Below, piece by piece: positions 14,772 to 57,178 of a stretch of 64,000 nucleotides of DNA. Each line of letters starts with the position of its first letter. The stretch's first letter is position 1. The DNA is taken from the NCBI GenBank assembly GCA_900215285.1, contig OCMG01000003.1:434001-498000 (forward strand), given 5' to 3'. The stretch comes from Ensifer adhaerens. GTDB taxonomy: Bacteria > Pseudomonadota > Alphaproteobacteria > Rhizobiales > Rhizobiaceae. Under the pieces are notes generated by a model that did no database searches, had not been told where the DNA came from, and worked only from the letters and a program-made list of their open reading frames with translations. Position numbers and translations under genes: made by a program.

Positions 14772-14917
14772 GAAGCGCGGCACCTCCTCCCGCCCGCTTC
14801 GAGCCTCAGGCCTTCTCTCCTCCCGAAGGGCCTGAACAAGAGCAGCGACACTCCTCCTCCCAGTCGCTGTTCTGAATTTCGAAAGCCTGCCGCACCTCCT
14901 CCCGCGGCAGGCTTTTT
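14772..14917 (+). ncRNA. Cuckoo/CcsR-type small RNA locus with four CTCCTCCC-loop hairpins
   Basis: Four hairpins follow one another. A is 14772-14800 (GAAGCG/CGCTTC, loop with ACCTCCTCCC). B is 14806-14835 (TCAGGCC/GGCCTGA, loop TCTCCTCCC). C is 14839-14873 (AGAGCAGCGAC/GTCGCTGTTCT, loop ACTCCTCCTCCCA). D is 14882-14917 (perfect 12-bp AAAGCCTGCCGC/GCGGCAGGCTTT, loop ACCTCCTCCC, then a T run, so a terminator). CCUCCUCCC loops are the hallmark of the alphaproteobacterial cuckoo RNA family (CcsR RNAs in Rhodobacter). Those RNAs come as pairs of hairpins, often in tandem, and can pair with GGAGG-type sequences. A-B and C-D may be two units. No DUF1127 gene, the usual upstream partner, is seen here. 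The strand is set by the T run after D. Confidence 0.7.
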
Positions 14918-14956
14918 CGTTTGTGCTCTCCAAAATCTTCGAGAACCCGTTGGCAG

Positions 14957-31226: not shown

Positions 31227-32237
31227 ATGGATGCCGAGCAGCTTCTGAGCCCGAGACCGGAAGGGCTTTATTGCCGGCCTGGCGGCTTCTATATCGATCC
31301 GGTGCGGCCGGTCGAGCGGGCGCTGATCACCCACGGCCATTCCGATCATGCTCGCCCCGGCCATGGCGCGGTGCTGGCCACACGGCGCACGCTCGATATC
31401 ATGGGACTGCGCTATGGCGCGGACTTTTGCGGATCGGAACAGGCCGCCGCCTTCGGCGAGACGATCAATATCAATGGCGTGACAGTCAGCTTTCACCCCG
31501 CCGGCCATGTGCTCGGCTCCGCGCAGATTGCCGTCGAGATGGACGGCACCCGCATTATTGTATCCGGCGATTACAAGCGCTCGCCCGACCCGACGGCGGA
31601 AGCCTTCGAGCCCGTGCCCTGTGATGTCTTCATCACCGAGGCGACCTTCGGCCTGCCGGTCTTCCGCCATCCGGATCCCGACAAGGAAATGGGCAAGCTG
31701 ATCGCCTCACTGAAGCTCTTCCCCGAGCGCACGCACATGATCGGTGCCTATGCGCTCGGCAAGGCGCAGCGGGTGATCGCGCTGTTGCGCCGCCAGGGCT
31801 ATGACGCGCCGATCTACATTCACGGCTCGCTCGACAAGCTCTGCCGCTATTATCAGAGCGAGGGGATCGATCTCGGCGATCTGCGTCCGGCCACCGTCGA
31901 GAAATCCGAGCGCGCGGATTATCGCGGGGCGGTCGTCATCGGCCCGCCATCCTCCTTTTCCGACCGTTGGGCGCGGCGCTTTGCCGAGCCGCTGACCGGC
32001 TTCGCCTCCGGGTGGATGATGGTGCGCCAGCGTGTTCGCCAGCGCGGCGTCGAACTCCCGCTCATCATTTCCGACCATTGCGACTGGGACGAGTTGACGG
32101 CGACCATCCGCGAGATCGGCCCGCAGGAGGTCTGGGTGACGCATGGGCGCGAAGAGGCGCTGGTGCGCTGGTGTGAGCTGCAGGGCGTTGCCGCCAAGCC
32201 GCTGCATCTCGTCGGCTATGAAGACGAGGGCGATTGA
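31227..32237 (+). CDS. Ligase-associated DNA exonuclease (metallo-beta-lactamase fold)
   Basis: A 336-residue protein of the MBL/beta-CASP fold. The zinc-binding motif HGHSDH is at residues 36-41 (ALITHGHSDHARPGHG), followed by AGHVLGSAQ, VSGDYKRSPDPT and FGLPVFRHP. It is the type annotated as ligase-associated DNA exonuclease, which pairs with an ATP-dependent ligase in bacterial repair cassettes. The next gene is exactly such a ligase, with a 1-base overlap (TGATG), so joint function in DNA end or strand-break repair is inferred. The Lhr-type helicase and metallophosphoesterase that usually complete the cassette are absent here. Confidence 0.9.
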   Translation: MDAEQLLSPRPEGLYCRPGGFYIDPVRPVERALITHGHSDHARPGHGAVLATRRTLDIMGLRYGADFCGSEQAAAFGETININGVTVSFHPAGHVLGSAQIAVEMDGTRIIVSGDYKRSPDPTAEAFEPVPCDVFITEATFGLPVFRHPDPDKEMGKLIASLKLFPERTHMIGAYALGKAQRVIALLRRQGYDAPIYIHGSLDKLCRYYQSEGIDLGDLRPATVEKSERADYRGAVVIGPPSSFSDRWARRFAEPLTGFASGWMMVRQRVRQRGVELPLIISDHCDWDELTATIREIGPQEVWVTHGREEALVRWCELQGVAAKPLHLVGYEDEGD

Positions 32238-33847
32238 TGGAAGCCTTTGCCGCCCTTCTCGACCGTCTCGTGCTGACACCGCAGCGTAATGGCAAGCTGA
32301 CGCTTCTCGCCGACTATTTCGCCACCACGCCGGATCCGGATCGCGGCTATGCGCTCGCCGCGCTCACCGGCACACTCGATCTCCATCTCGTCAAACCGGC
32401 GCTGATCCGCGAGCTGGTTTTGGAACAGATGGACCCGGAGCTGTTCCGCTATTCCTATGATTATGTGGGCGATCTGGCCGAGACAGTGTCGCTGGTCTGG
32501 CAGGCGCCGCCGGGCGACAAACCCGAGCCGCCGCGCCTGAGCGCCGTGGTGGAAGAACTGAACGGCCTCAGCCGCAGCAATATCCGCTCGCATCTGCGCG
32601 CGCTGCTCGACCGGCTGGATGCCAGCGGCCGCTATGCCTTCCTGAAGCTCGCCATGGGAAACTTGCGCATCGGCGTCTCGGCGCGCCTTGCCAAGCAGGC
32701 GCTTGCCCAGATGAGCGGCATCGACATCACCGAGATCGAAACGCTTTGGCATGGGTTGGCCCCGCCTTACGTCGATCTCTTCGCCTGGCTGGAGGGCAGG
32801 GCGGACAAGCCGATGCTGGTGACGCCCGCGATCTTCCATTCGGTGATGCTGGCGCATCCCATTGGTGACGATGACCTGAAGAAAATGGACCCCGCCGATT
32901 TCCTCGCCGAATGGAAATGGGATGGCATCCGCGTGCAGCTCTCCGCCTCGGGAGATCGCAAGAAACTCTATTCGCGCAGCGGCGACGATATTTCCGACAC
33001 CTTCCCGGATGTGCTGGAGGCGGTGGATTTCGAGGGCGTCATCGATGGCGAACTCCTGATCGGCGGCACGGCGCGCACCAATTCGCCGACGTTGACCTTT
33101 TCCGACCTGCAGCAGCGGCTGAACCGCAAGACGGTGACGCCGGCGCATCTGCGCGACTACCCCGCCTTCATCCGCGCCTACGATCTCCTCTTCGAGGGCG
33201 AGAACGACGTGCGCGGCGAGGGGCTGGAGACGCGGCGCGAACGGCTTGGCCACCTCATCGAGCGCGCCGCCCATGACCGCTTCGACCTTTCGCCCATCGT
33301 CGGTTTCGACAGCTGGGAGGGCTTGGAAAAACTGCGGCTCGACCCGCCTGATCCGGTCATCGAGGGCGTGATGATCAAGCGCCGCGAGAGCACCTATCAG
33401 GCCGGCCGCGTCAAGGGCGAATGGTTCAAGTGGAAGCGCGATCCCTATCTCATCGACGCGGTGATGATGTATGCCCAGCGCGGCCACGGCAAGCGCTCCA
33501 GCTACTATTCCGACTTCACCTTCGGCGTCTGGACCGGGGAGCCCGGCCAGGAAGTCCTCGTGCCCGTCGGCAAGGCCTATTTCGGCTTCACCGACGAGGA
33601 ACTGGAAATCCTCGACAAATTCGTCCGCAACAACACGACAGACCGCTTCGGCCCCGTCCGCGCGGTGCGCGCCGAGCGAGAAAAGGGTTTCGTGCTGGAA
33701 GTGGCCTTCGAGGGGATCGCGCTGTCCAACCGGCACAAATCGGGCGTGGCGATGCGCTTTCCGCGCATTGCGCGGCTGAGAATGGACAAGCCGCCGATCG
33801 AGGCGGACCGGCTGGAGACATTGATGGGGTTGGTGGGGGAGCGGTGA
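32237..33847 (+). CDS. ATP-dependent DNA ligase (repair type)
   Basis: A 536-residue ligase. The nucleotidyl-transferase motif I is EWKWDGIRVQ with the AMP-accepting Lys227 (K-x-D-G), after an N-terminal DNA-binding region of about 200 residues (VVEELNGLSRSNIRSHLRALLDRL). Other motifs are YSRSGDDISDTFPD, GVIDGELL, EGVMIKRRESTYQAGR and WFKWKRDP (motif V). The C-terminal OB domain ends LMGLVGER. It is coupled to the exonuclease by a one-base overlap (TGATG). The TTG one codon upstream is rejected in favour of ATG 32237. Immediately downstream the base composition changes to AT-rich. Confidence 0.92.
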   Translation: MEAFAALLDRLVLTPQRNGKLTLLADYFATTPDPDRGYALAALTGTLDLHLVKPALIRELVLEQMDPELFRYSYDYVGDLAETVSLVWQAPPGDKPEPPRLSAVVEELNGLSRSNIRSHLRALLDRLDASGRYAFLKLAMGNLRIGVSARLAKQALAQMSGIDITEIETLWHGLAPPYVDLFAWLEGRADKPMLVTPAIFHSVMLAHPIGDDDLKKMDPADFLAEWKWDGIRVQLSASGDRKKLYSRSGDDISDTFPDVLEAVDFEGVIDGELLIGGTARTNSPTLTFSDLQQRLNRKTVTPAHLRDYPAFIRAYDLLFEGENDVRGEGLETRRERLGHLIERAAHDRFDLSPIVGFDSWEGLEKLRLDPPDPVIEGVMIKRRESTYQAGRVKGEWFKWKRDPYLIDAVMMYAQRGHGKRSSYYSDFTFGVWTGEPGQEVLVPVGKAYFGFTDEELEILDKFVRNNTTDRFGPVRAVRAEREKGFVLEVAFEGIALSNRHKSGVAMRFPRIARLRMDKPPIEADRLETLMGLVGER

Positions 33848-33959
33848 AATTTGCCGACGTTGATCACTATGACAAAGACTTGGCCGGCAACCACCGACGG
33901 TAGTAACCTCTCGACAACCAAATTTGGATATGCAACCCTTATATCAGGGGAGACATATA

Positions 33960-34763
33960 TTGAAAGTTAGACCTTTTCTAAAATGGGCCGGCGGCAAGCG
34001 TTGGCTTGTTGAACGCGGAGATTTTTCATTCCCGCGTTTTGACGGAACATACATCGAGCCGTTTCTCGGTAGCGGCGCCGTTTTTTTCAGTCTGTCGCCC
34101 AAAAAAGCTTTATTGTCAGATGTAAATCAAAGACTTATTGAAGTATATAATGAGCTAAAAAATAACTATAACGATGTCGTTGAAATTCTAAAATTGCACC
34201 AAAAGAGACATTCGAAAGAATATTATTATAAAATTCGCTCTCTTTATCATGAAAATGCGGTTGAGCGGTCTGCGCAATTTATTTATCTCAATAGAACCTG
34301 TTGGAATGGGCTTTATAGGGAAAATTTAAAAGGGGAATTTAACGTTCCAATAGGGACGAAAACAAAAATCGCCCCAGCTGATGAGGACTGGGATGCGATT
34401 ACTTCGGTCCTGAAAAATGCAGAAGTTGTTTGCTGCGACTTTGAGAGCACTATTGATAGAGCTGGGGAAAATGATTTTTTGTTTGTGGATCCGCCTTACA
34501 CTACTGCTCATAACTTAAATGGATTCGTGAAATATAACCAAAGAATTTTCACTTGGAGTGACCAGATTAGGTTAAGGAACTCCGTTGTTAGAGCAGCTGA
34601 GAGAGGGGCAAAGGTTGTTGTGACAAACGCTCATCATGATTCTATATTGGAATTGTATGATGGGATAGGAGTGACGGAGCAAATTAGAAGAGCGTCTATC
34701 ATATCAGGTAAGAATCTCGGTCGTCAAAGTACATCCGAATTGATAATCCGTTGCAACATGTGA
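33960..34763 (+). CDS. DNA adenine methyltransferase, Dam/D12 class
   Basis: A 267-residue N6-adenine methyltransferase. The D12-class motifs are in order: motif X FLKWAGGKRWL (residues 6-16), motif I EPFLGSGAVFF (residues 33-43, S-adenosylmethionine binding), and the catalytic motif IV DPPY at residues 177-180 (FLFVDPPYTT). FIYLNRTCWNGLYRENLKGEFN is the typical central stretch. ATG 33930 is in frame upstream, but TTG 33960 has GGGGAG seven bases before it and gives the normal N-terminus (LKVRPFLKWAGGK), so it is taken as the start. It is AT-rich and foreign-looking. It is not the cell-cycle methyltransferase CcrM, which belongs to another class. The target sequence (GATC or other) is unknown. 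Confidence 0.9.
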   Translation: MKVRPFLKWAGGKRWLVERGDFSFPRFDGTYIEPFLGSGAVFFSLSPKKALLSDVNQRLIEVYNELKNNYNDVVEILKLHQKRHSKEYYYKIRSLYHENAVERSAQFIYLNRTCWNGLYRENLKGEFNVPIGTKTKIAPADEDWDAITSVLKNAEVVCCDFESTIDRAGENDFLFVDPPYTTAHNLNGFVKYNQRIFTWSDQIRLRNSVVRAAERGAKVVVTNAHHDSILELYDGIGVTEQIRRASIISGKNLGRQSTSELIIRCNM

Positions 34764-34771
34764 GCTGTTAA

Positions 34772-35287
34772 ATGCCGCCTTGGATCAGAGTTGCTATTCG
34801 TTATGCTTATAGATCGTTACGCGAGTTCTTGTTCCTGGTGTTCTTTTCGTTCATGCCGGTATGGCTTGGTGCTGTCGCGCATTTCCTGTTTGATCAGAGC
34901 GTTTCTGTCTATTTGAATGGCTACCTTATAAATGGGGAAGCACTGCTCTTGTCGGCAACGACAGTTGGCCCCCTAATGTTTACATTAGTTAGTGCGGAAA
35001 CCTTGTCTACTAAGACGCGACGCAATTTCCCTCTCAAGTGGATGTATTATCTAGCAATTATAGGTGTTTGCGTGGTGGCGGCTTTTCTAATCGGAGTGCG
35101 GGCCACTCCACAAGCCAGCACCTATCTATCCCCCACAGCGATGCAACTTGTTTCTTTGGTGGTATCCGCGATTTCGATAATTGTTTGGTTCGCAATTGTC
35201 GGCACGAATGCAGCGCATGAGAGCGGAGCACCAGATATCATGCGACAAGATGAAACTGATTTTGTGAGCAACTATAGAGCACAATGA
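34772..35287 (+). CDS. Four-helix membrane protein of unknown function (island gene 2)
   Basis: A 171-residue protein with four predicted membrane helices (about residues 16-40, 52-75, 88-108 and 122-143) and short hydrophilic ends. No signal peptide, enzyme motif or family recognised. It lies 8 bases after the methyltransferase and overlaps the DGQHR gene (ATGATG), so all three are likely one transcript. Small multi-helix membrane proteins are frequent killing effectors in bacterial anti-phage systems, so that role is a possibility, not a finding. The codon use is AT-rich like its neighbours. Confidence 0.7.
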   Translation: MPPWIRVAIRYAYRSLREFLFLVFFSFMPVWLGAVAHFLFDQSVSVYLNGYLINGEALLLSATTVGPLMFTLVSAETLSTKTRRNFPLKWMYYLAIIGVCVVAAFLIGVRATPQASTYLSPTAMQLVSLVVSAISIIVWFAIVGTNAAHESGAPDIMRQDETDFVSNYRAQ

Positions 35288-36462
35288 TGCAGCAATCTTT
35301 GAATTTGGTGGACCCAGACAAAATTGAAAGGCGCTTTAAGGCTCTTAGAGTCAGGCAGCCTATAGGTGATATATTTGTTGCTGCGGTTGACTATAAATCA
35401 ATACAAGAGATTACATTCTTTGATGTTAGAAGAAGACTTCAGGACGAGAGAGATATTGAGAGGTATCTCGGAATACAGCGTCCGCTTAATGATGCTCGCG
35501 TAAGAGAATTAAACCAATACGTAAATTTTATTGATGCAACATTTCCAGGCACAATAATTGTTTCTGTAGAAAATGACTATGCGAGATATGATGAAGCGAG
35601 CGGGCAGATAATTCTGTCGAATACTCGTGTCGGCGAGGAAACCCCTTCAATTCCGCTGCGGAATCTTTGCCGAGTGATTGATGGCCAACATCGAATTGCG
35701 GGGCTCGAAAAGTTTGACGCCCGAGATGATAAACACTTTGATGTTATGGTCTCATTCTTCGTTGGAAGTGATATTTCCGATCAAGCTTATGTTTTTGCGA
35801 CAGTAAACCTGGAGCAAACTAAAGTAAATAAAAGCTTAGCCTATGATTTATTTGATTTGGCTCGTTCTCGTAGTCCGTATAAGACATGCCATAACATCGC
35901 TGTAGCTTTGGATCAGCTTGAGACAAGTCCCTTTTACAAGAAGATTAAGAGGCTGGGAACTTCCGAAAATGATAGAGGTGGAGAAACATTAACGCAGGCT
36001 ACTTTCGTCAACGGTTTTGTGGGGTATTTGTCCGATGACCCTAAAGGCGATCGCGATGCGATTCTAAGGGGAAAGAAGCTTCCCATTCCCTCGACCAAGG
36101 AGCTTCAGAAGTATGTATTTCGAGGTCTTTTCCTAGCCGGTGAGGACCTGAAAATTGGGAAGATTTATGAAGAGTATTTTCAGGCTGTCAGAGAAAAATG
36201 GTCTGAGGCGTGGAATTATTCCGGAACAGGAATAATGTTGTCGCGCACAAACGGGTATCGAGCTCTAGCGTCGGTGTTTGGTCGCGTCTACAAATCTGTA
36301 GCGCGACCCGGCGAAATTGTGGACCGGAGGGAGTTCCGTCGAATGTTCGATCGGGTTGACCTGCGCTGGGACGATTTCAATACCGATCGGTTTAAGCCCG
36401 GATCTTCAGGGGAATCCGAGCTGCGTAAACTTTTGATCGGTGAGATGGCTTTGGAAGACTAA
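35284..36462 (+). CDS. DGQHR domain protein, DndB-like
   Basis: A 392-residue protein. The diagnostic DGQHR is at residues 133-137 (RVIDGQHRIAGLEKF), within a region that matches the DGQHR/DndB family: ERYLGIQRPLNDARVRELNQYV, FPGTIIVSV, FVTVNLEQTKVNKSLAYDLFDL-like stretch and TPFYKKIK-type SPFYKKIKRLG. DndB is the regulator of phosphorothioate DNA modification, and related proteins occur in defence islands. No dndC, D or E gene is here. ATG 35284 and ATG 35287 are both possible starts, overlapping the previous stop. A hairpin spans the stop codon. Function within this cassette is unknown, probably DNA binding or control. Confidence 0.82.
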   Translation: MMQQSLNLVDPDKIERRFKALRVRQPIGDIFVAAVDYKSIQEITFFDVRRRLQDERDIERYLGIQRPLNDARVRELNQYVNFIDATFPGTIIVSVENDYARYDEASGQIILSNTRVGEETPSIPLRNLCRVIDGQHRIAGLEKFDARDDKHFDVMVSFFVGSDISDQAYVFATVNLEQTKVNKSLAYDLFDLARSRSPYKTCHNIAVALDQLETSPFYKKIKRLGTSENDRGGETLTQATFVNGFVGYLSDDPKGDRDAILRGKKLPIPSTKELQKYVFRGLFLAGEDLKIGKIYEEYFQAVREKWSEAWNYSGTGIMLSRTNGYRALASVFGRVYKSVARPGEIVDRREFRRMFDRVDLRWDDFNTDRFKPGSSGESELRKLLIGEMALED

Positions 36463-36492
36463 GCGCTTTCTATTGCCATGGACTTAGTCTTC
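36454..36492 (+). terminator. Hairpin overlapping the end of the DGQHR gene
   Basis: Perfect 10-bp arms GAAGACTAAG (36454-36463) and CTTAGTCTTC (36483-36492) around a 19-base loop. The first arm contains the TAA stop. There is no long T run, so it may be a weak terminator or an RNA-stabilising end, and it marks the right edge of the AT-rich island. Confidence 0.55.
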
Positions 36493-36507
36493 TAAGAGGC
36501 CGATGCC

Positions 36508-38358
36508 TCACCCCTTCTTCTTCTTCCAATCCGGCTTGCCACCCTTGCCGCCACCCGGCTTCCCATCAAAGCCCTTGCCCTTATACGGCTTGCCCCCACC
36601 CGCATTATCCCGGTCGCCCTTCTTCTGCCAGTCGGGCTTCTTGAAGTCGCCTTGCGGGCGGTCGTCGCGGTTTCCGCCTTCACGGGGGCCGCTGCGGGAC
36701 ATGTCGGGGCGGGCGTCGAGCTTTTTGACGCGCAGCTTGTCCTCGATCATCATCTTCGGGCCGAGGGCGGCGGTGAAGCCGTCGGCGGCGCTGGCGTGGA
36801 TTTCGACATAGGTTTCGGCGGGCATCATCTTGATCGTGCCGATGTCGCGCTTGCCGATATTGCCGGCGCGGCAGAGCATGGGGATGAGCCAGCGGGGTTC
36901 GGCATTCTGCTTGCGGCCGACCGAGAGCGAGAACCAGACGCTTTCGTCGAAGTCTTCGCGAGCACGGGACGGCTGCGGCTCGAAATCATTGGTGCGGCGC
37001 TCGCGCGTGGCGTCGCGCGCCTCGCGGGATTTCGGCGCATAGACGGCCATTTCCTGGATGTCTTCCGGCGCAAAACGGGTCGAGCGGAAATGCCGGATAT
37101 AGGCGGCGGCGATCTTCTCGGCGCCATGTGCCTCGATGAGGCGGGCCGCCATGTCGCGATCGTCCTCATCGACGCCAAGGCTCAGTTCCGGGTCGGTCAG
37201 CAGGCGTTCGTCGTCGCGCTGCAGGATGGCGGCTGCGGTCGGCGGGTTGGCCCATTCGGCCTGGATGCCGGCGGCATCGAGCAGGCGCTCGGCCTTGCGG
37301 CGGGCGGGCAGCGGCACGATGAGGGCGGAGACGCCCTTGCGCCCCGCGCGTCCCGTGCGGCCGCTGCGATGCTTCAGCGTTTCGGCATTCGTCGGCAGGT
37401 CGGCATGGACGACGAGTTCGAGGCTCGGCAGGTCGATGCCGCGCGCGGCGACGTCGGTCGCGATGCACACGCGGGCGCGGCCGTCGCGCATGGCCTGCAG
37501 CGCATGGCTGCGTTCGTTCTGCGTCAGTTCGCCGGAGAGGGATACGGCCGGGAAGCCGCGATTGGAAAAGCGCGCCGTCAGATGAGCGACCGCCGCTCGG
37601 GTCGAGCAGAAGACGATGGCCGTGGCCGCATCGTAGTAGCGCAGCGTGTTGAGGATCGCATTTTCGCGGTCGGGGGCGGCGCAGAGGAGCGCGCGATATT
37701 CGATATCGCTGTGCTGCTGCTCTTCGGCGGCGGTGGTGATGCGCATCGCGTCGCGCTGGTAGCTCTTGGCAAGCGTCGCAATCGACTTCGGCACAGTCGC
37801 CGAGAACATCAGCGTGCGCCGCTCTGCGGGGGATGCGCCAAGAATGAATTCGAGGTCATCGCGGAATCCGAGATCGAGCATTTCGTCGGCTTCGTCCAGC
37901 ACGACGGCGGCGAGGTTGGACAGGTCGAGCGCATTGCGCGTGATGTGGTCGCGCAGGCGGCCGGGGGTGCCGACGACGATATGGCAGCCGCGCTCCAGCG
38001 CCCGGCGTTCTTTCCGCGTATCCATGCCGCCGACGCAGGTGGCAATCACGGCGTGAGTTTCGGCATAGAGCCATTCGAGTTCGCGCGCGACCTGCATGGC
38101 CAGCTCGCGCGTCGGCGCGATGGCGAGTGCGAGTGGTGCTTCAGCCGGGCCGAACAGGCGGTTGTCGCCGAGAATGTCGGGAGCGATGGCGAGGCCGAAG
38201 GCCACCGTCTTGCCGGAGCCGGTCTTGGCGGAGACGAGCGCGTCGCGACCCTTCAGGTCGTCCGAGCGCATCGCCTCCTGCACGGGGGTCAATTGCGTAT
38301 AGCCGCGCTTTTGAAGCGCGTTGCCAAGCGGCGTCGCAACGCCGTCGAAAATCGTCAT
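36508..38358 (-). CDS. DEAD-box RNA helicase with DbpA-type C-terminal domain
   Basis: A 616-residue ATP-dependent RNA helicase. N-terminal Q motif GYTQLTPVQEAM, motif I SAKTGSGKT (near residue 45), motif II LDEADEMLD, motif III SAT (LMFSATVPKS) and motif VI HRSGRTGRAGRKG are all present. The region around residues 430-540 corresponds to a DbpA RNA-binding domain, and the last 60 residues form a Gly/Lys-rich tail (GGGKPYKGKG). It probably acts in ribosome assembly or RNA turnover at low temperature. The upstream in-frame ATG at 38415 lies in the spacer. ATG 38358 begins the normal N-terminus (MTIFDGVATPLG) but has only a weak ribosome site. It is divergent from the cobalamin-riboswitch operon. 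Confidence 0.9.
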   Translation of the reverse strand: MTIFDGVATPLGNALQKRGYTQLTPVQEAMRSDDLKGRDALVSAKTGSGKTVAFGLAIAPDILGDNRLFGPAEAPLALAIAPTRELAMQVARELEWLYAETHAVIATCVGGMDTRKERRALERGCHIVVGTPGRLRDHITRNALDLSNLAAVVLDEADEMLDLGFRDDLEFILGASPAERRTLMFSATVPKSIATLAKSYQRDAMRITTAAEEQQHSDIEYRALLCAAPDRENAILNTLRYYDAATAIVFCSTRAAVAHLTARFSNRGFPAVSLSGELTQNERSHALQAMRDGRARVCIATDVAARGIDLPSLELVVHADLPTNAETLKHRSGRTGRAGRKGVSALIVPLPARRKAERLLDAAGIQAEWANPPTAAAILQRDDERLLTDPELSLGVDEDDRDMAARLIEAHGAEKIAAAYIRHFRSTRFAPEDIQEMAVYAPKSREARDATRERRTNDFEPQPSRAREDFDESVWFSLSVGRKQNAEPRWLIPMLCRAGNIGKRDIGTIKMMPAETYVEIHASAADGFTAALGPKMMIEDKLRVKKLDARPDMSRSGPREGGNRDDRPQGDFKKPDWQKKGDRDNAGGGKPYKGKGFDGKPGGGKGGKPDWKKKKG

Positions 38359-38535
38359 GCGGAAATCTTTCGGAACAGGACCGGCTGGCGCTTGGAAAGC
38401 ACGCTGCGGGATCAATCATGCGCGCCTTCTACCCTCACTTTGGCAAAATGTACAGGGCGCAGCGGGCAAGTGCCGCAATGGAGGTGGCGGACTGCCGGAT
38501 CGCCAAGCCATCGCCTTGACCTGGGCTGCAAGTAA

Positions 38536-38573: not shown

Positions 38574-38601
38574 TTGACAATTGTCGGGCGCGGCGCATAA
38601 C
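38574..38601 (+). promoter_or_regulatory. Sigma-70 type promoter of the corrinoid transport operon
   Basis: TTGACA (38574-38579), 16-base spacer, CATAAC (38596-38601), directly before the riboswitch at about 38609. A strong -35 and reasonable -10 with suitable spacing. Confidence 0.65.
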
Positions 38602-38608
38602 TGGCGAT

Positions 38609-38800
38609 GACGGTTCCTGAAGGCCAAGCCGGATGGATTAATAGGGAACATGGTGAGGACGACCCGAATGGGGCCGAAACCATGGCTGCCCCCGCAACTG
38701 TGAGCGGTGAGGCTCTGTCAACGACGCCACTGGCCGAAAGGCCGGGAAGGCAGACAGAGCTTTCGACCCGCGAGCCAGGAGACCTGCCGTCAAGACACGT
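38609..38800 (+). promoter_or_regulatory. Cobalamin riboswitch
   Basis: It has the conserved blocks of the B12 riboswitch: GACGGTTCC at the 5' end, TTAATAGGGAAC, CCCCCGCAACTGTGAGCGG, GACGCCACTGGCC with the GCCACTG motif, and the B12 box GAGCCAGGAGACCTGCCG at 38772-38789. Order and spacing match the class. It lies in the leader of the ABC transporter genes and should shut them off when adenosylcobalamin is bound. Confidence 0.95.
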
Positions 38801-38906
38801 AGCAACCGGACGGGGTGTGCCGGGAAGCGTTGATGACCATCAGGCGCGATTTGCCCGCCCTCGATGGCCGATCATCCTTCTCCAGCGCCGATTGCCGAGA
38901 GATGAG

Positions 38907-56964: not shown

Positions 56965-57059
56965 GCATATGTCCTTTCGTTGTTGCAACGAAAGCCTGCG
57001 CAGGTGGGAAGGTCAAGACAGACTCCCGCCATCGCGGAAGGCTTTCGAGCATTCCACCC

Positions 57060-57125
57060 TTGGCAGGAGCTATCAGCCGACGCCTCGAAGCACCGGCGGT
57101 TGTCGGGAAGCCCCATTCCCATCTA
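57060..57125 (-). promoter_or_regulatory. Fluoride riboswitch upstream of crcB
   Basis: On the minus strand the leader begins GGGAATGGGGCTTCCC, continues AACCGCCGG and ends GGCGTCGGCTGATAGCTCC then TGCC. This fits the crcB RNA class: 5' GG-N-ATGG block, AACCGCC pseudoknot arm, and GGCTGATNNCTCCTGCC at the 3' end. It lies about 95 bases before the crcB start. The ATGG block reads GGGAATGG instead of the common GGCGATGG. Confidence 0.88.
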
Positions 57126-57178
57126 GGATCTATGTAGGGAAGGAGCCGCGTCGCTGCAATCTCTGCGTCGCGGACCGT

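Follow-up and report, generated by a model that had tools for sequence, protein, structure and literature searches.

We analysed a 64,000-nucleotide stretch of the Ensifer adhaerens genome (contig OCMG01000003.1, positions 434,001 to 498,000), referred to here as the window. A low-GC island in the window encodes a Dam-type DNA methyltransferase (Dam), a four-helix membrane protein (TM) and a DGQHR-domain protein (DGQHR). The last two form a constant core, the TM-DGQHR pair, and the DNA-modification enzyme is exchanged beneath it. Coordinates are given in Table 1. A ligase gene (32234-33847) ends with its stop codon at 33847, on the 5' side of the island, and a helicase gene (36508-38415) on the minus strand converges with the island operon. 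Three plus-strand open reading frames lie between them. Dam and TM are separated by 8 bp, and the TM and DGQHR genes share 4 bp (ATGA). The operon of about 2.5 kb has a GC content of 43.5% against 61% (0.613) for the window, with values of 0.399, 0.471 and 0.445 for Dam, TM and DGQHR, 0.638 for the ligase gene and 0.666 for the helicase gene. The lowest-GC 2.5-kb stretch of the window (0.435; 615 sliding stretches compared) begins at 33901. Both the spacing and the composition agree with an earlier note on this DNA, which had described three close or overlapping genes of distinct composition between a ligase and a helicase gene.

Table 1. Features of the island, in window coordinates.
Feature	Position	Strand	Remarks
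Low-GC island	33848..36507	.	Between ligase and helicase genes; drawn from GC profile and breaks of similarity to congeners
Dam-type N6-adenine DNA methyltransferase, 279 residues from TTG	33924..34763	+	TIGR00571, PF02086, DPPY
Four-helix membrane protein (TM), 171 residues	34772..35287	+	AlphaFold2 model, family alignment A3
Codons of TM residues G55-E56	34934..34939	+	Before / at start of helix 2
DGQHR-domain protein, 392 residues	35284..36462	+	ParB-like N-terminal domain (about 24-180) and helical C-terminal part
DGQHR motif (residues 133-137)	35680..35694	+	Motif in 81/81 DGQHR proteins examined

The methyltransferase belongs to the Dam subfamily, scoring 234.7 bits against TIGR00571 (cut-off 114.85) and 166.6 bits against PF02086 and carrying the DPPY motif. 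An in-frame ATG at 33930 is an alternative start. DpnM (2dpm, 175 bits) is the solved structure closest to it by sequence, and its FNVPIGTK loop is common to many Dams of sister loci. The residue after FNVP-x-G, which we take to have a role in reading GATC, is threonine in the window Dam and arginine in E. coli Dam and DpnM. Dams of this system often share the loop FNVP-x-G-T-K: of 63 examined, 43 have the motif, 37 of these with threonine. This substitution perhaps gives these Dams a distinct site specificity.

The DGQHR protein is a member of the DGQHR domain family by its motif and by scores above both cut-offs (184.5 bits against TIGR03187, cut-off 58.85; 53.8 bits against PF14072, cut-off 29.1). 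Its N-terminal half has the ParB N-domain fold and so falls in the ParB/Srx superfamily, in a structure model of moderate confidence only. The earlier note was right about the DGQHR family, but its further label "DndB-like" proved too specific, with 25.7 bits against the DndB model TIGR03233 and a cut-off of 328. No nuclease family was found in the protein by family searches at the level of Pfam, NCBIfam, PADLOC and PHROG.

The AlphaFold2 model of TM (mean pLDDT, the predicted local distance difference test, 90.1) bears out the four membrane helices proposed earlier, at residues 12-26/28-39, 44-53/56-78, 89-111 and 121-170. The protein matched no family above cut-off in Pfam or NCBIfam, had no PADLOC match and had no significant PHROG match. 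Alignment A3 comprises 53 members: the window protein, 48 of 64 locus TMs and 4 of 10 database homologues. Position 55 is glycine in 52 of them, the following position is E, Q or D in 49, and a serine in helix 4 is kept in 49. The distribution of positive charges suggests that both termini lie inside, which would put these conserved residues near the outer face. They would fit a pore or a sensor, or a contact used in assembly, and we rank an effector or gate first and a tether second. At one locus (L065, 4149-5978; L numbers designate loci) TM is the C-terminal part of a 609-residue open reading frame that has no Pfam match at E 0.01.

The pair is strongly conserved. One genome per GTDB species was scanned with a DGQHR alignment (A1) made of the window protein and 27 of 120 listed homologues, from at least 3742 matches among 7999 scored. 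Of the 79 loci found, 66 have a DGQHR match above 200 bits against our profile and make up the close set. A TM open reading frame lies directly upstream of DGQHR in 64/66; the exceptions are L009, at a contig end, and L064, where the match covers residues 53-332 only. With a size limit of 120-260 residues, and with the edge cases L009 and L058 set aside, the count is 62/64, the failures being L064 and the 609-residue frame of L065. By the same test, 1/17 weaker DGQHR matches and 7/344 other genes in the fetched loci were positive. Among these 17 are three nuclease-fused proteins, one further fragment of the gene in L060, and L002. Only L002 is positive, and this congener locus is a TM-DGQHR pair close to a dndD-like gene. 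Chance co-location is ruled out by the count in the close set as compared with both controls, and a single-lineage artefact by the many phyla in the DGQHR tree.

A Dam-family gene is present in 54 of the 66 loci. It lies upstream of the pair on the same strand in 48, among which L052, L061 and L063 have other genes in between, and downstream in six (L010, L013, L036, L055, L065 and L067). The trio is thus conserved as a unit in the co-occurrence comparison that the earlier note had proposed, and it extends over several phyla; the loci as a whole come from Pseudomonadota, Bacteroidota, Planctomycetota, Chloroflexota, Acidobacteriota, Thermodesulfobacteriota, Elusimicrobiota and others. The ten strong matches on IMG/VR contigs have Dam in 10/10 and TM in 9/10, the remaining one (L132) beginning at a contig edge, and TM is found in none of five weaker viral-contig matches (L138-L142). 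Eleven of 24 matching plasmid records were opened, and ten have an upstream TM of at least three hydrophobic segments; in the eleventh (L127) the upstream protein has 273 residues and two hydrophobic segments. The system is rare in its own class, the genome studied here holding the only strong match among 385 Alphaproteobacteria genomes. Over 63 loci, evolutionary distances correlate at 0.57 (Spearman) between TM and DGQHR as against 0.41 between Dam and DGQHR, and both values beat all 999 shuffles.

Twelve of the 66 loci have no Dam match. Six of these carry another adenine methyltransferase, one carries dnd-like genes and five show no modification gene in the stretch fetched. An MT-A70-like methylase is found in L009, L016, L034 and L060 (three by Pfam, L009 by clustering and a DPPW motif), and a longer D12 enzyme in L006 and L053. 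The gene row of L068, read from the sequence, is dndC-dndD-dndE-TM-DGQHR-dndA; dndC and dndD of this row have matches among dnd genes annotated at other loci. Plasmid partners vary likewise: Dam in L082, MT-A70 with BglII/BstYI on pRiA4 (L083), and a D12 enzyme with BglII/BstYI in Acinetobacter (L084). The Dam-associated pair of Bosea (L035) and the MT-A70-associated pair of pRiA4 are 83% identical in DGQHR and 66% in TM.

We placed these partners on a DGQHR tree of 81 proteins, built by a quick method, in which L068, L082 and L126 are long branches. Its rows are 64 first-set loci (window included), 9 plasmid, 7 viral and 1 congener sequences; the tree and distance work leaves aside the incomplete L009, L060 and L064, viral L132, L135 and L137, and plasmid L122 and L127. 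The partner classes Dam, long D12, MT-A70 and dnd require at least seven changes on the tree, partnerless loci being left uncounted. The three MT-A70 rows account for three changes and the three long-D12 rows for another three, and the eight dnd-type rows make up one side of a branch with support 98. The DNA mark has been exchanged under a constant pair, because partners change on the tree and TM co-varies with DGQHR. The three-gene unit first proposed does recur, but the real unit is the pair with an interchangeable partner.

Phosphorothioation genes also accompany the pair. Both dndC and dndD are annotated beside it in plasmid L085, L124 and L126, and other phosphorothioation-annotated or DndE-family genes in L086, L123 and L125. 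In E. coli 55989 (L144, 11759-13438) the order is dptF-dptG-dptH, membrane protein, DGQHR gene, dndE-D-C-B. Here the annotation splits the DGQHR gene into two coding sequences in the same frame, the first of which ends in a stop, and assigns the membrane protein to the "accessory gene regulator B family"; the L122 copy of this protein reaches 24.0 bits with the Pfam AgrB model, whose cut-off is 23. Among 5426 complete E. coli genomes, 176 match a 1.6-kb stretch that holds the greater part of the pair and a small piece of dndE; in 110 the match extends over 80% or more of it. A separate dndB is found alongside the pair in Aliivibrio and in E. coli. Papers are cited here by PubMed Central number; according to one, genes for 1 to 3 hypothetical proteins often lie between the dpt and dnd clusters, and they occur in dnd-positive genomes only (PMC4373003). 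The dnd-type membrane proteins share with the window TM their position, size and mostly their helix count. A congener of our strain carries the other TM-DGQHR type near dndD-like genes (G002:C7:675602-676768; L002, L143), with a DGQHR protein 30% identical to that of the window; therefore both versions occur in one genus.

Restriction enzymes appear next to some pairs. The row of L063 is Dam, DpnII restriction enzyme, TM, DGQHR and an N6/N4 methylase, and BglII-family enzymes occur in L009 and L034 (by Pfam) and in L083 and L084 (by annotation); in L009 DGQHR and BglII are present and the upstream side is cut off. All five type II restriction enzymes identified nearby, among neighbours that were only partly classified, are thus DpnII or BglII/BstYI, families that we take to cut at sites built around GATC. 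Among the neighbours scanned, most loci, that of the window included, have no recognised restriction enzyme beside them. Other neighbours include an AAA ATPase and an HNH protein (L053), SIR2-like proteins, SMODS-associated NUDIX proteins and integrases.

A sister family joins nuclease-like parts to the kind of domain that stands alone beside a membrane protein in the window. In L141 (4492-7668) and L142 (4463-7668), Dam is followed directly by a 774-residue protein with a DGQHR domain, and there is no TM gene. The family has an N-terminal QID...ECK (PD-(D/E)XK-like) signature ahead of the DGQHR domain and, in 3/6 members, a Swt1-HEPN match below cut-off; PADLOC gave DpdB and PDC-M34B matches on L141. 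Relatives of the 774-residue protein adjoin the pair in L027, L039 (cut by a contig end), L052 and L065. Dam and the PD-(D/E)XK-like/DGQHR/HEPN-like protein of L141 and L142 are a candidate compact restriction-modification pair.

The island was probably acquired. Similarity to four congeners stops at 33847/33848, the ligase stop, and returns near 36500, at the helicase 3' end, and 3.9-8.7 kb of different genes fill the interval in those genomes; the island therefore occupies a variable interval. The comparison of synteny suggested in the earlier note thus shows a variable interval between kept ligase and helicase flanks, but a clean empty site was not found in the four congeners compared. In one congener (G005, L116) 125 bp of the ligase 3' end are present a second time, with 83% identity, some 3.5 kb downstream of the gene, as though an element had inserted at that 3' end. 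The absence of dndCDE and of a restriction nuclease, also read from the DNA beforehand, holds up. The island contains three genes only, with no cognate endonuclease adjoining the methylase as in a type II system, and the genome has no match to dndC (TIGR03183), the sulfurtransferase gene expected of a Dnd phosphorothioation system, and none to DpnII, other endonuclease families not having been searched genome-wide. A search for BglII is uninformative, as it gave no match in control genomes either. A second D12-class methylase (74 bits) lies outside the window, at G000:C4:50338-51039 (L146).

Elsewhere in the window, a cobalamin riboswitch lies ahead of an ABC transporter cluster (38594-38805; Rfam RF00174, 123.7 bits), a fluoride riboswitch is on the minus strand at 57057-57129 (RF01734, 45.5 bits), and the alphaproteobacterial small RNA ar14 is at 14800-14919 (RF02344, 95.5 bits).

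Conservation of the pair, co-variation of TM with DGQHR, independent swaps of partner and the company of restriction and phosphorothioation genes are directly supported. We give about an even chance to the view that the island belongs to an unnamed family of restriction-modification-like systems, patchy in distribution, in which DGQHR would read the mark and TM would serve as output or anchor. Dam, whose motifs are intact, would methylate host DNA. DGQHR would bind DNA, and the presence or absence of the mark would switch its nucleotide turnover, in the manner of the DGQQR domains of SspE and DndI; its fold, motif and genomic company point in this direction. The DGQQR domains belong to the ParB-like DUF262 family, and their nucleoside triphosphate (NTP) hydrolysis is reported to be controlled by DNA modification (PMC13251355, PMC11662687). 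NTP hydrolysis is lost in SspE R133A, which abolishes phage resistance (PMC13251355), and in DndI R87A, which reduces it (PMC11662687), and sequence similarity between DUF262 and DGQHR domains has been reported (PMC4619093). On meeting unmarked invading DNA, DGQHR might then act through TM to damage the membrane or block entry, or might instead be held at the membrane where DNA enters; this last step is the weakest. Mark reading is the likeliest role for DGQHR, given its invariant motif, its fold and the marking enzymes that constantly accompany it.

The earlier note had offered methylation as self-mark, DGQHR as sensor and TM as effector. That scheme fits the data and is our leading interpretation, but it is still a proposal, and several results weigh against it. 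The TM model has no convincing likeness to a known channel, toxin or sensor, and an effector role is for this reason a guess. Foldseek with the DGQHR model gave no significant match (best E 0.22), the ParB matches coming from a second look, and the protein has no match to DUF262 (DGQQR) in Pfam at E<=1. Five loci (L021, L025, L038, L058 and L064) have no modification gene in the fetched stretch, L058 being cut near TM; a D12 search in the genomes of four of the five found one elsewhere in three and none in that of L021. Homology between the window TM and the dnd-type TMs was not shown (hhalign probability 11%). Finally, DndB, a true DGQHR protein, is described as a transcriptional regulator (PMC4507180).

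The alternative that survives best, though we consider it unlikely, is membrane-anchored restriction at entry, with TM tethering DGQHR to the inner membrane and DGQHR nicking incoming unmarked DNA. The stop-start overlap of the two genes and their co-variation suit a complex; nuclease activity is cited for members of the ParB superfamily (PMC10853773), and SNIPE is reported as a membrane nuclease acting at injection (PMC13190303). Yet the window DGQHR protein lacks a recognised nuclease family, the sister family has a separate PD-(D/E)XK-like part, and the conserved polar residues of TM suggest more than an anchor. Less probable is a regulatory role, in which DGQHR would be a DndB-like repressor limiting the expression or activity of the modification operon and TM a loose passenger or signal input. 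DndB controls dndCDE transcription in Salmonella (PMC4507180), and modification operons contain or adjoin the pair, but the pair stays while the supposed target operon is replaced by unrelated enzymes, it coexists with a separate dndB in Aliivibrio and E. coli, and TM is kept nearly throughout (64/66 loci).

We rank lower still an addiction or fail-safe device that kills or arrests cells after loss of modification or breach of restriction, and so stabilises the locus more than it stops phage. Most loci, including that of the window, show no restriction enzyme beside them in the neighbours scanned; the relatives on plasmids and viral contigs would suit such a device, as would those beside type II systems, where the pair, as a further reader of the mark, would act as backup. 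That DGQHR helps the enzyme choose or reach its sites is very improbable, as its 71 bits against the DpdB model are far below the cut-off of 300, the same pair is common to partners of unrelated chemistry and, to our knowledge, Dam enzymes need no helper. The parallel would be DpdB in 7-deazaguanine insertion, described as a ParB-like ATPase of that step (PMC12839542).

Returning to mark reading with TM as output or anchor, a broader version is possible but doubtful. The pair could represent a new class of self/non-self discrimination, a two-gene module of reader and membrane output that can be plugged onto N6-methyladenine or backbone sulfur. A ParB/Srx NTPase would turn the recognition of unmarked DNA into a membrane response instead of cleavage, and the unexplained E. 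coli genes lying between dptFGH and dndBCDE would represent this module too. In textbook accounts, restriction-modification consists of a methylase and a nuclease. The present family keeps the marking half and couples marking to a membrane protein and a DGQHR protein, an arrangement seen again with phosphorothioation. Should the pair be the restricting half, the reading of DNA marks and membrane-acting immunity, usually separate, would be joined in one module. It also suggests a role for the hypothetical proteins noted in E. coli between its dpt and dnd clusters (PMC4373003).

PADLOC 2.0.0 reported no matching system: the window TM had no match, its 53 aligned relatives had stray single matches, and Dam and DGQHR had generic methylase and distant DpdB/DndB matches only. 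Kiwa presumably resembles the pair in combining a four-helix membrane protein, KwaA, with a DNA-binding partner, KwaB; we know of no methylase in it. PADLOC, which we take to contain kwaA and kwaB models, gave no kwaA match among the 53 TMs and no kwaB match for DGQHR, the KwaA fold not having been compared directly. SspE, DndI, BrxU and GmrSD carry DGQQR (DUF262) and a nuclease, whereas the window has DGQHR and a membrane protein, with neither DUF262 nor HNH (DUF1524) found at E<=1 in Pfam. The DpnII and BglII/BstYI type II restriction-modification systems resemble the island in that Dam is nearest to DpnM and pairs lie inside or near such loci, but the window island has no restriction endonuclease. 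The L141/L142 system shares the order of Dam followed by a DGQHR-domain protein and differs in having effector-like parts fused and no TM gene. The phosphorothioate systems of TIGR04172 (DGQHR_dnd_1; in NCBIfam, "DNA phosphorothioation-associated DGQHR protein 1") are arranged alike, with a membrane protein preceding DGQHR beside phosphorothioation genes. Their mark is sulfur and not methyl, the window DGQHR protein scores 172.3 bits against a cut-off of 450, and the dnd-type rows are set apart on one side of a branch of the DGQHR tree.

The earlier note knew of no described system made of these three genes, and we likewise found no name for the pair or trio in PADLOC 2.0.0 or in the literature searched, a search whose scope excluded bioRxiv, most subscription papers and newer defence catalogues. 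The available text of papers that mention DGQHR contains no description of a membrane partner. The nearest statement in print concerns a Mycobacterium abscessus lineage in which a DGQHR protein and a DpnIIA methylase belong to a set of genes co-varying at one locus (PMC9248903). The conserved system is real, and we found it under no name; its parts are of known kinds, and their combination and the exchange of the mark under one membrane-linked pair are new to us.

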